From contig NZ_FXXA01000002.1 of assembly GCF_900184265.1 (NCBI RefSeq), positions 3,765,983-3,829,982 on the forward strand: a stretch of DNA of 64,000 bases. Direction: 5' to 3'. A program made the translations under genes and the position numbers. The notes under the pieces are model-generated. The model was not told the DNA's origin, did no database searches, and saw nothing but the letters and a program-made list of their open reading frames with translations. Of the stretch, positions 7,997 to 64,000 are shown piece by piece. Within the stretch, counting starts at the first letter, position 1; every line of letters begins with the position of its first letter. The DNA is from Eggerthella timonensis (GTDB lineage Bacteria; Actinomycetota; Coriobacteriia; Coriobacteriales; Eggerthellaceae).

Positions 7997-8135
7997 CTCT
8001 TGGCACAGATCGCACGATATGAACGATTTTTTGCAGCCTTTCGCACTTCTTGAAGAGCATATATCAGCAAATCCCCAGGTGGCGTTTCAACGTCGTCCTC
8101 GAGAATCGTTCATACCGTGCGATCTGTGCCAAGAG
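7997..8135 (-). repeat. Palindromic element PE-2 (dispersed family)
   Basis: Two 32-nt arms (7997-8028 and 8104-8135) pair with a single mismatch. The outer part of the arm is CTCTTGGCACAGATCGCACG, followed by ATATGAACGATT. The 75-nt loop carries the family core on the minus strand as GCCACCTGG (8075-8083). The arms closely resemble those of PE-7 at 56550-56669. It lies between the divergent rsmI and hydrolase genes, with no gene between 7874 and 8257. Confidence 0.8.
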
Positions 8136-12708: not shown

Positions 12709-12861
12709 TTGGCAGGATATTCCCCTATTGGCAACTTGGATGCGGCAAGTGTGCCTCGCAGGTCGAACGCTACCGGAGAAAGACCAGGTTGCGGAGGCGA
12801 GTTCGCAAGCGAAACGCGATCAGGTCCGGATCAGCTTACCAACAAGGGAATATTCTGCCAA
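12709..12861 (-). repeat. Palindromic element PE-3 (dispersed family)
   Basis: The 23-nt arms 12709-12731 and 12839-12861 read TTGGCAGGATATTCCC then CTATTGG versus TTGGCAGAATATTCCC then TTGTTGG, which is good pairing with a few mismatches. Weaker pairing extends about 10 nt outward on each side. The minus strand carries the core GCAACCTGG (12784-12792). It lies between the gpx and XRE-AbrB genes, 60 bp from a parS site. Confidence 0.75.
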
Positions 12862-12921: not shown

Positions 12922-12937
12922 TGTTTCACGTGAAACA
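12922..12937. other. parS chromosome partition site
   Basis: This is an exact 16-bp palindrome TGTTTCACGTGAAACA, the ParB/Spo0J binding site conserved in many phyla. It is intergenic, between gpx and the XRE-AbrB gene. Confidence 0.92.
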
Positions 12938-23881: not shown

Positions 23882-24024
23882 CGGTTTCCGCCTTTATGTT
23901 GCGAATTCGCGGCACCCGGAGGCATGCAGGGCTATGCGGCAGAGGCCGAACTGGGGAAACGCGTGCGTTCGGCACGGAACGTGGAGCGCAGGAGGCCTCA
24001 ACCGCAACATAATGGGGAAAACCG
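23882..24024 (+). repeat. Palindromic element PE-4 (dispersed family)
   Basis: The 22-nt arms 23882-23903 and 24003-24024 pair at 19 positions. The outer part is CGGTTT(C/T)C and the inner part is TTATGTTGCG. The loop holds the core variant CCGAACTGG (23946-23954) followed by GGAAACGCGTGCG, which matches the post-core sequence of PE-5. It is intergenic, between birA and the UPF0210 gene. Confidence 0.7.
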
Positions 24025-43866: not shown

Positions 43867-44017
43867 CGGAATGTGCGGTTTTCACCGGAATGTTGCGCTG
43901 GACTTGCGTCTTCGAGCCGTTCTGCAAACGCGACCTGGTAAAACGCATGCGAATCCCCGGCTCGCGGTGCATCTGCGACGCATAAACGCAACATTCGGGT
44001 GAAAACAGCACATTCCG
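43867..44017 (+). repeat. Palindromic element PE-5 (dispersed family)
   Basis: The 31-nt arms 43867-43897 and 43987-44017 pair at 29 positions (CGGAATGTGC, TTTTCACC, GAATGTTGCG blocks). The loop carries the core GCGACCTGG at 43930-43938, followed by TAAAACGCATGCG. The inner arm end ATGTTGCG is shared with PE-4. It lies between the LuxR gene and a 43-residue gene. Confidence 0.8.
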
Positions 44018-55048: not shown

Positions 55049-55213
55049 GCGCTGTGCGGGAAAATCGGGTTTTTGGCAATCCGAGCCTCGCATTGTGCAC
55101 CGGGGCGAACACGCGACCTGGTGTTTTGCCGTCGAGGGCTCCGCCGAAAGACGTTTCGTCGCGGCAAAGCCCGGAAAGGACTGCCAAAAACCCGATTTTT
55201 CCGCACACAGCGC
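55049..55213 (+). repeat. Palindromic element PE-6 (dispersed family)
   Basis: Arms 55049-55078 and 55182-55213 pair nearly perfectly with one 2-nt indel (GCGCTGTG, AAAATCGGGTTTTTGGCA). Pairing extends 4 nt inward. The loop carries the core GCGACCTGG at 55113-55121 followed by TGTTTTGCCGTCG. It is intergenic, between the small hypothetical gene and the PucR gene. Confidence 0.8.
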
Positions 55214-56494: not shown

Positions 56495-56510
56495 TGCTTC
56501 ACGTGAAACA
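56495..56510. other. Near-parS site (one mismatch)
   Basis: TGCTTCACGTGAAACA differs from parS by T to C at position 3. It is 36 bp from the perfect site at 56531, upstream of the PucR gene. Confidence 0.75.
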
Positions 56511-56530: not shown

Positions 56531-56546
56531 TGTTTCACGTGAAACA
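56531..56546. other. parS chromosome partition site
   Basis: Exact TGTTTCACGTGAAACA, ending only 3 bp before the left arm of palindromic element PE-7. Confidence 0.92.
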
Positions 56547-56549
56547 TCT

Positions 56550-56669
56550 TGGCACAAAATCGACGATATGAACGATTTTTGGACCTCGTTTTCGACGCTT
56601 TGCAGCATTATCCCAGGTCGACAAGTACCGCAAGGAGTGAAAATCGTTCATATCGTCGATTTTGTGCCA
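56550..56669 (-). repeat. Palindromic element PE-7, perfect 30-bp arms (dispersed family)
   Basis: The 30-nt arms 56550-56579 and 56640-56669 are exact inverted copies (TGGCACAAAATCGACGATAT, then GAACGATTTT). They are nearly the same arms as PE-2. The minus strand carries the core TCGACCTGG (56613-56621). It is intergenic, between the PucR and dehydrogenase genes, and abuts a parS site. Confidence 0.85.
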
Positions 56670-61703: not shown

Positions 61704-63110
61704 ATGGTTCTATCGCCTATCGACTACATCATCATCGCGTTGTACTTCATCGTCATCGTCGCCATCGGCTTCATCGCGGCACGGTTCGCGAAAACGAAGG
61801 AAGACTACCTCGTGGCCGGCAGACGGTTGTCGTTTCCCCTGTTCTTCGGGTGCATGGCTGCGCTCACCTTGGGCGGCGGCTCCACCATCGGCAGCGCCCA
61901 GCTGGGCTACGAGTTCGGGTTCGGCGGCATCTGGCTCAACCTGAGCATCGGCCTGGGGCTCGTCGCGGCCGGCTTCCTCGTGACGAGCAAGCTGTCGAAG
62001 CTGCGCGCCCTCAGCGTGAACGAAGTGGTGGAGAGCAGCTACGGCCCGGTCGCGCGCGTGTTCAGCTCGGCGCTCACGCTCATCTACACGCTCACGCTGA
62101 GCGTGGTGCAGGTCATCTCCATCGGAACCATCATCAACGGCGTGACAGGCATCGATGCCACGCTGTCCATGCTGGTGGGAGGCGGCATCGTCATCCTGTA
62201 CACGTTCGTGGGCGGCATGTGGTCGGTCACCATGACCGACATCGTGCAGTTCGTCGTGAAAACGGTGGGCATCCTCATCCTGGCCCCCATCTTCTGCATT
62301 TCGGCCGCCGGCGGCTGGGACGCCCTCGTCAGCAAGGTGCCCGAGACGTACCTGTCGGTGGGCAGCATGGGCTTCGACAAGAGCTTCGCCTACCTCGTGC
62401 TGTACGTTCCCGGGCTCATCATCGGCCAGGACATCTGGCAGCGCATCTTCACCGCGAAGAACGAGAAGGTGTCGAAGGCGGGCACCGTGTGCGCAGGCGT
62501 CTACAGTGTCTTCTACGCGCTGGCCACCGTCGTCATCGGCATGAGCGTGTTCGTGCTGCTGCCGCACCTGGACAACCCGCAGAACGCGTTCGTGGTGGGC
62601 GTGTCCACGTTTTTGCCCGTCGGGGTGCGCGGGCTCATCCTGGCGGCGGCGATGGCGGCCACGATGTCGGTATCGAGCGGCACGATTTTGGCGTCGTCCA
62701 CCATCCTGTACAACGACCTGTACGTGCGCTTCGTTCGCCCGCGGATGGCCGAGCGTGCGACGCACCTCAAGGAAGTGACTATCACGCGCCTGTTCGCCCT
62801 GCTCATCGGCGTGGTGGTGATGGTATGCTCGCTGTGGATCAACGACGTGCTGGTGGGCATCGACCTCTGCTACGGCTATCTGTCGGGCTGCGTGTTCGTA
62901 CCGCTCGTGGCCAGCTTCGTGCTCAAGAGGTTCAGCCCGAAGGCGGGGCTCTACGCGCTCGGCGTGAGCACCGTGGTGGTGACGGCGTGCTTCGTCGTCG
63001 TAGGAACGGCGAGCTCCGTCCCCATCGTGGCGGGCATGGCTTCCGGCTTCGCGGCGTACGCGGCGGCGAACCTCCTCAGCAAGCAGAAGGTGCCCTCGCC
63101 GTTCGAGTGA
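61704..63110 (+). CDS. Sodium:solute symporter (SSS family)
   Basis: The protein has 468 residues. About 12-13 membrane helices with SSS hallmarks: IDYIIIALYFIVIVAIGFIA, the conserved EDYLVAGRRLSFPLFFG, SAQLGYEFGFGGIWLNL, and FGGMWSVTMTDIVQ-like helix 5. The late motif LPVGVRGLILAAAMAATMSV is the family's conserved loop. It imports a solute with Na+; the substrate is unknown. It is divergent from the arcB operon. Its last codons (TTCGAGTGA) lie within a repeat arm. Confidence 0.9.
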   Translation: MVLSPIDYIIIALYFIVIVAIGFIAARFAKTKEDYLVAGRRLSFPLFFGCMAALTLGGGSTIGSAQLGYEFGFGGIWLNLSIGLGLVAAGFLVTSKLSKLRALSVNEVVESSYGPVARVFSSALTLIYTLTLSVVQVISIGTIINGVTGIDATLSMLVGGGIVILYTFVGGMWSVTMTDIVQFVVKTVGILILAPIFCISAAGGWDALVSKVPETYLSVGSMGFDKSFAYLVLYVPGLIIGQDIWQRIFTAKNEKVSKAGTVCAGVYSVFYALATVVIGMSVFVLLPHLDNPQNAFVVGVSTFLPVGVRGLILAAAMAATMSVSSGTILASSTILYNDLYVRFVRPRMAERATHLKEVTITRLFALLIGVVVMVCSLWINDVLVGIDLCYGYLSGCVFVPLVASFVLKRFSPKAGLYALGVSTVVVTACFVVVGTASSVPIVAGMASGFAAYAAANLLSKQKVPSPFE

Positions 63111-63126
63111 GACAGGGGGACGGGGA

Positions 63127-63200
63127 GTGAGACAGAGGGACGGGGTAATTGTCTCATTTTGCGGGCAAAATGAGACAATTACCCCGTCCCTCTGTCTCAC
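63127..63200. repeat. Perfect 35-bp inverted repeat (REP-like) between convergent genes
   Basis: Arms 63127-63161 and 63166-63200 are exact inverted copies (GTGAGACAGAGGGACGGGGT, then AATTGTCTCATTTTG) around CGGG. A direct partial copy (GTGAGACAGGGGGACGGGG) lies just before, at 63106-63124, covering the symporter stop. The right arm contains the stop of the second PucR gene. It resembles REP/RAYT-associated hairpins. Confidence 0.85.
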
Positions 63201-64000
63201 TCGAACTCGGGCAGGAACACGAGGCTGAGCAGGCTGATGAACACCTTGTCGTCCTCGTGGGGGATGCCCAGCACGGCCTTCATCTTGCGCATGCGGTAGC
63301 GAACGGTGTTGGGATGCTGGTGCAGCTCCTCGGCGATGACCTTCACGTCGCCGTGCCAGTTCACCAGCGCCTCGGCCGTGCGCACGAGCTCGGTGCCGTG
63401 CTCCTCGTCGTAGGTGGCCAGCATCGAGCGGTACAGCTCGCTCGCGCTCATGAACAGGCGGTCGTAGCGAGCGGCGTTCGCGAACGCGGACAGGTGCAGC
63501 CCCGACCAGCGCGCAAGCTGGTCGCCATGGCGCTGCGCGCTCGCCGCGGCGGCAAGCGCCTGACGGATGGCCAGATCGCCGTCGCTCAGGTGCACCGCCT
63601 CGCTCACGCCGCAATGCAGGTTGCCTTCCATGGAGGCCACGGCGATGCATCGGCGCTCGGCGGCCGCCTGCTCCTCGTCGCTGGCCGAGCCGTAGGACAC
63701 GAACGCCAGGATATGCTCGCGATAGCGGCACACGCTGGACGACTCCACGGCCGCGCATCCGTCCCTCACCGCCGCCAGCTCCGAAGACACGGAGTCGAGC
63801 ATGGCGTAGAACGAGCACGGGTCGCCCGCGCGCAGCGCGAACGCGAAGCACTGCAGCTTCGAGCCTGTCGCGCCCACGAGCGCGCTCAGCCGCGTGCGCA
63901 CCTGGTCGCCATCGTGGGCGGTCAGCAGCTCGTCGAGGGCCTTGCCCTTGTCCAGCTCGTCGCGGTCGCGCTGCAGCAGGTCGAGCGATTGGTACGCCAC
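63197..64000 (-). CDS. PucR family transcriptional regulator, 5' end beyond window
   Basis: At least 267 residues are visible. The first visible codons (gtg-gcg-tac, VAYQSLDLLQRDRDELDKGK) align with the internal VAYQALDLIHRDAEESDKGR of the PucR protein at 55253-56428, so the true start lies beyond 64000. The C-terminal PucR helix-turn-helix is LHQHPNTVRYRMRKMKAVLG. The two PucR genes flank the arginine/guanidine operon and symporter, and probably co-regulate them. Its stop lies in the REP-like repeat. Confidence 0.88.
   Translation of the reverse strand: MAYQSLDLLQRDRDELDKGKALDELLTAHDGDQVRTRLSALVGATGSKLQCFAFALRAGDPCSFYAMLDSVSSELAAVRDGCAAVESSSVCRYREHILAFVSYGSASDEEQAAAERRCIAVASMEGNLHCGVSEAVHLSDGDLAIRQALAAAASAQRHGDQLARWSGLHLSAFANAARYDRLFMSASELYRSMLATYDEEHGTELVRTAEALVNWHGDVKVIAEELHQHPNTVRYRMRKMKAVLGIPHEDDKVFISLLSLVFLPEFE

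Follow-up and report, generated by a model that had tools for sequence, protein, structure and literature searches.

Dispersed intergenic palindromes in Eggerthella timonensis and their association with genes for predicted AbiEi-like/Vsr-like fusion nucleases

The palindromic element PE-7 was found in a stretch of 64,000 nucleotides from the gut bacterium Eggerthella timonensis (the window). We consider it to be a non-coding member of a group of dispersed palindromes that are served in trans by genes coding for a fusion of an AbiEi-like domain with a Vsr-like nuclease, and assign a probability of about 0.6 to this reading. The finding which carries it lies outside the window: palindromes of this type are associated with a nuclease-like gene of about 310 aa, which has 11-14 matches in each of the genome under study (G000) and its relatives G001, G003 and G006.

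PE-7 has perfect 30 bp arms that are 100% complementary and separated by a 60 bp spacer, and a gap of 3 bp separates it from a perfect parS-type 16-mer, both as described in the earlier note on this DNA. The features of the locus are:

56550-56669: PE-7, whole element, 120 bp
56550-56579, plus strand: left arm of PE-7, TGGCACAAAATCGACGATATGAACGATTTT
56613-56618, plus strand: core of the CCWGGT class (CCAGGT), located close to the centre of PE-7
56640-56669, plus strand: right arm of PE-7, the exact reverse complement of the left arm
56531-56546, no strand assigned: parS-type 16-mer TGTTTCACGTGAAACA, a neighbour outside the element
56495-56510, no strand assigned: one-mismatch parS-type 16-mer, paired with the site at 56531-56546; a counterpart is present in the sister genome G003

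The element is flanked by two predicted genes, both in minus orientation. One, of 391 aa, presumably codes for a PucR/CdaR-type regulator and begins about 121 bp away; the other, of 329 aa, which we take to resemble D-2-hydroxyacid dehydrogenases, ends at a distance of about 163 bp. A BLAST comparison of PE-7 with phages gave no match, nor did one of another copy of the same family with plasmids.

The palindrome is far beyond chance, as about 25 more copies with the same 120 bp layout occur in the genome. This family (F1) comprises some 25 copies according to a genome search and at least 27 according to a covariance model built on those. Nearly all copies are 119-122 bp long, and each of the 25 examined copies is located outside predicted genes. 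Conservation is strong in the inner part of the arm (TATGAACGATT), which is near-invariant across the family, and in the core (GAAACCCCAGGTCG); the outer part of the arm is variable, and its partner in the opposite arm varies along with it. Among the 25 copies, two-sided compensatory changes are seen in 13 of the 26 arm pairs. Pairing is retained in 95.7% of the cells of the arm alignment, with 84 two-sided changes compared to 33.9 in shuffles, a value reached in none of 500 shuffles. No direct repeat indicating target duplication was seen by eye in the flanks of the 25 copies.

F1 is only one of several arm families. A de novo scan for palindromes, which covered 464 kb of G000 as well as parts of G001 and G006 (400 kb for each of these two), retrieved many palindromes with unrelated arms and a common core. 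When loop hexamers were counted without presupposing a core, the top hexamer was ACCTGG, which is present in 117 of 236 distinct palindromes while 10.5 are expected. In the oriented set, the core is positioned at 0.52 +/- 0.05 of the element length. The CCWGGT-class core is thus the feature that is common to the different arm families. Besides PE-7 and a second F1 copy, at least three palindromes in the window belong to this superfamily, and a fourth is possibly a decayed member:

8001-8131, plus strand: PE-2, the other F1 copy of the window, core CCCCAGGT, 131 bp, middle about 11 bp longer
12709-12861, plus strand: element of another arm family (TTGGCAGGATATTCCC), core AGACCAGGT
23882-24024, no strand assigned: weaker palindrome, possible decayed member, 19 of 22 arm positions paired, no exact core
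43867-44017, minus strand: member of a different arm family, with ACCAGGTCGC as its minus-strand core
55053-55207, minus strand: F4-family element (TGTGCGGGAAAATCGGGTTTTTGGCA), with CACCAGGTCGC as its minus-strand core

The F4 arm family also flanks nuclease-like genes, at G000:2763404 and G003:2446786. At three loci (L164 11898-12099, L143 16333-16544, and L196) an extra arm copy is found about 50 bp beyond the palindrome, suggesting that these are tandem or partly duplicated elements. Helical phasing of the element lengths (120, 130, about 150) is not clear in the length spread.

The partner gene was encountered in a search of 1.26 Mb for distant inverted pairs. In G000, G001 and G006, homologous genes of about 310 aa lie inside palindrome pairs with a spacing of 1.1-1.3 kb; for F1, the partner genes in G000 are at G000:C2:728951-729880 and 794079-795005. 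A palindrome is found within 350 bp of the gene for 37 of 43 gene copies, compared to 42 of 224 controls with a comparable gene length (p 3e-17), and the control set was partly chosen around palindromes, so that the comparison is conservative. The association persists when the three copies that had been found through their palindromes are left out (p 7e-16), and also when CCWGG is required in the loop (27 of 43 gene copies, 25 of 224 controls, p 3e-12). For six of the 43 copies there is no palindrome within 350 bp. Three named loci from Gordonibacter were found independently via one protein query. Two of these (L257 and L258) carry F1-clade genes with F1-type palindromes on both sides, which have an outer-arm sequence of their own, and the third gene has one adjoining palindrome. 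We consider the association between palindromes and genes to be well supported. Further families of the same order likewise provided examples of palindromes beside copies of the gene.

Most members of the protein family match Pfam families DUF559 or MTES_1575, often weakly. An AF2 model of the partner protein (pLDDT 89.8) was used for fold assignment with VIA-align 2. Residues 170-287 of the model match the homing endonuclease I-Bth0305I (3r3p, Z 10.0) and Vsr (1cw0, Z 8.2). Residues 1-167 match an AbiEi antitoxin with a borderline Z of 8.0, or 7.8 when the domain is modelled alone, and the Z for Rv2827c is 5.8. Foldseek alone returned no match under E 0.001, and the sequence match between I-Bth0305I and the partner protein is weak (E 0.32). 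The active-site residues D220, E231, H237 and D246 show no variation among 33 proteins. The partner is therefore predicted to consist of an AbiEi-like domain fused to a Vsr/I-Bth0305I-like PD-(D/E)XK (EDxHD) nuclease domain, an architecture that differs from Vsr and I-Bth0305I by the fusion; neither an intron nor a mismatch-repair context was seen. Vsr acts in a CCWGG context, which matches the core of the palindromes described here. An arm-binding domain joined to a CCWGG-type nuclease would fit a palindrome with a central CCWGGT; binding and cleavage are inferred here.

Arm similarity and protein similarity are correlated (Mantel r 0.61, while the largest value in 5000 permutations is 0.17). 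The test is weakened by the fact that orthologous loci make up many of the close, concordant gene pairs, and part of the correlation thus reflects common descent. Concordant pairs also exist at unrelated, non-syntenic loci (L125/L158/L128, L245/L256, and L225/L246). Exact F1 inner arms occur 15 times in G000 and eight times in G001 while none were found in G002, G003, G006, G007 and G010; they are thus confined to two of seven genomes, which are those with an F1-clade gene. F2 arms are found 12 times in G006, twice in G000, where both copies flank the F2 gene, and nowhere else. F3 is an exception: G000 has five of its palindromes, and a gene of the F3 clade was not found in that genome. From these sequence comparisons, each gene clade appears to have its own version of the palindrome.

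The gap which holds PE-7 differs between the relatives. In G001 it is occupied by an F3-type palindrome (L065, G001:C1 about 3132870-3133060), and in G002 there is a short sequence between the two genes that contains neither parS nor PE-7. In G003, which is about 93-96% identical in this region, both parS sites are kept and PE-7 is missing. At two other loci, G003 carries remnants (a piece of the middle or one arm end), which point to loss rather than gain at these positions. For one copy, G000 and G001 have orthologous counterparts. The earlier note had proposed a search for empty sites in sister strains. The absences in G003 are messy; no movement was seen, and neither a clean insertion nor a clean empty site was found at the sister loci, where, in the search of G002 and G003 with chimeric flank queries, the divergence of the intergenic DNA prevented junctions from being placed exactly. 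Two G003 elements (L100 and L101, near 1370-1500) share the left flank and the left arm while their middles and right flanks differ and their cores are in opposite orientation, as if a rearrangement had occurred through the element. A near-identical pair in G001 was considered as a recent transposition and was rejected since it is part of a larger duplicated segment. Gain, loss and rearrangement of palindromes are all plausible. On the reading preferred here, the gene is mostly inherited vertically while the palindromes turn over, and F1 palindromes are retained wherever the gene of the F1 clade is retained.

A mechanism can be proposed in which the AbiEi-like domain would bind the two inverted arms and the Vsr-like domain would nick or cut the core, probably on an extruded hairpin. 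The break or the hairpin may then be used for copying the palindrome to new intergenic sites or for correcting the arms. The chances seem evenly balanced that this amounts to a new class of mobile DNA, with palindromes being replicated or spread in trans by arm-binding, CCWGGT-cutting AbiEi-Vsr fusions in at least ten lineages per genome. We rate the combination of palindrome and nuclease as new in kind. In the open literature, to which the search was confined with subscription journals outside of it, no paper was found that relevantly joins DUF559 with palindromes or inverted repeats.

The palindromes might instead be operators, with each AbiEi-like protein repressing its own gene via the palindrome and the dispersed copies representing a regulon, so that nothing moves. 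AbiEi-type antitoxins do autoregulate by binding to 23 bp inverted repeats (PMC7319586), the palindromes are often located 16-300 bp upstream of the gene, and the dispersed copies that were examined are all intergenic. However, many genes also have a palindrome downstream, and a pure repressor has no need of the invariant nuclease active site. The turnover between species is high, the length is kept near-constant at 120 bp despite diverged middles, and a private dispersed regulon would be required for each of at least ten paralogues. While the predicted N-terminal fold and the binding of inverted repeats by known members relate the system to AbiEi antitoxins and Rv2827c, the known 23 bp repeats are 3-13 bp apart in a toxin-antitoxin promoter, whereas here arms of 28 bp are about 60 bp apart and dispersed in the genome, and the domain is joined to a nuclease. 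We consider it unlikely that the palindromes are merely operators.

It is more doubtful still that they are ordinary MITEs of DDE transposons, with the link to the gene reflecting insertion into a favoured region. Such elements would likewise have terminal inverted repeats of about 28 bp and a short non-coding body, and would be dispersed and lineage-specific. However, target duplications are not visible, with sister loci being too diverged for exact junctions, and the palindrome pairs inspected in the 1.26 Mb enclose an AbiEi/Vsr-like gene and no transposase. Also, a single central core that is common to unrelated arm families is not expected if these derive from different transposons.

Hairpins that act at the RNA level (terminators, 3′-UTR elements or antisense RNAs) and are selected for RNA folding would account for the 26 bp consensus stem, for its strong covariation and for the fact that most F1 copies (20) are located between co-directional genes. 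However, the orientation of the core is random with respect to transcription (nine with and 11 against), and no Rfam family was matched at the gathering score; at E 1, only long-hairpin miRNA models appeared, which are below the threshold. Among the mismatches in 100 oriented elements, G·T is not significantly more frequent than A·C (52 and 42, p 0.35), so that the pairing of the arms is probably maintained by something other than RNA folding. We regard RNA hairpins as a very improbable explanation and conclude that arm pairing is probably maintained at the DNA level. Either DNA-level selection on palindromy or copying of the arms from each other would have this effect, so that the earlier suggestion of arms under selection stands with respect to the preserved pairing and is not separated from arm-to-arm copying with respect to its cause.

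REPINs (Bertels and Rainey 2011, PMC3116915) resemble the palindromes described here: they too are extragenic inverted pairs that form a long hairpin, occur in many dispersed copies, have a middle for which it is mainly the length that is conserved, and show compensatory changes in the arms. Their trans-acting gene is also flanked by its own repeat, with the repeat class following the gene clade. The two systems differ in that the partner here is an AbiEi-like/PD-(D/E)XK fusion rather than a Y1 tyrosine transposase (PF01797), that the paired arms are about 28 bp long, that the CCWGGT core extends across families, and that there are 10-14 paralogous partners per genome. That the palindromes are nevertheless an ordinary REP system, mobilised by the RAYT of the genome, can hardly be maintained. 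G000 does have a RAYT-like gene, but only a single one (256 aa, L186 1099-1869), which is flanked by different palindromes (CCAAAGGGGACAGGCACCTTTGGG type; CCAAAGGGG(T/A)CAGGCACCTTTGGG-type), and G001, G002 and G003 have PE-type elements without any match to a Y1 transposase. The RAYT was thus rejected as a partner of the PE elements. The window contains a near-perfect palindrome of a separate repeat family (GAGTGAGACAGAGGGACGGGGTAATTGTCTCATTTTGC, 63101-63206). This family has many copies in G000 and one was seen in G006, both being genomes with a RAYT-like gene, while none was found in the sample from G001, which has no Y1 match; it is possibly the REP family of the genome. Integron attC sites are also palindromes with possibly co-varying arms in which the structure is recognised. 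In contrast to these, no gene-cassette array was seen here, and the conserved core is in the middle of the element rather than at its ends.

There is next to nothing left in favour of the earlier reading, by which PE-7 is a recent duplicate of PE-2 and might influence the spreading of ParB from its position next to parS: the two elements do belong to F1, with 48 kb between them, and parS is adjacent to PE-7, but the arms, which had been called almost the same, are only 83% identical, which makes a recent duplication unlikely, several genomic copies are closer to PE-7, the middles are unlike, and the lengths differ (131 and 120 bp). On sequence grounds, PE-2 is best taken as a family member and not as a recent copy of PE-7.

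The proximity to parS means little because the 16-mer is so abundant. There are 125 copies of TGTTTCACGTGAAACA across the chromosome of G000, five of them in the window (16 bp each, starting at 12922, 16330, 22634, 23811 and 56531), and 108-148 copies in each of five relatives (G001-G003, G006 and G007), compared to 0-14 copies in 25 other relatives. Only two of 25 F1 copies have the 16-mer within 60 bp, and G003 has kept the sites without PE-7. The parS site beside PE-7 hence looks like an incidental neighbour that is not part of the element. The 16-mer is locally clustered, for example with 10 sites in C2:529133-536794. Its number and spread are far above what is usual for ParB, and the sites may belong to a different regulator or to a ParB system that has expanded.

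Genes coding for DUF559/Vsr-like proteins with AbiEi-like domains are mostly unexplained, and a concrete function could be assigned to them if the palindromes are their substrates. With at least ten paralogous pairs of nuclease and repeat in one genome, this would also be a natural experiment on the co-evolution of nucleases and their targets. If the proposed role of the AbiEi-like/Vsr-like fusions is true, bacteria would have a second way of arriving at dispersed palindromes of the REPIN kind, with an unrelated enzyme, and a large part of the repetitive DNA between the genes of Gordonibacter and related bacteria would be accounted for.
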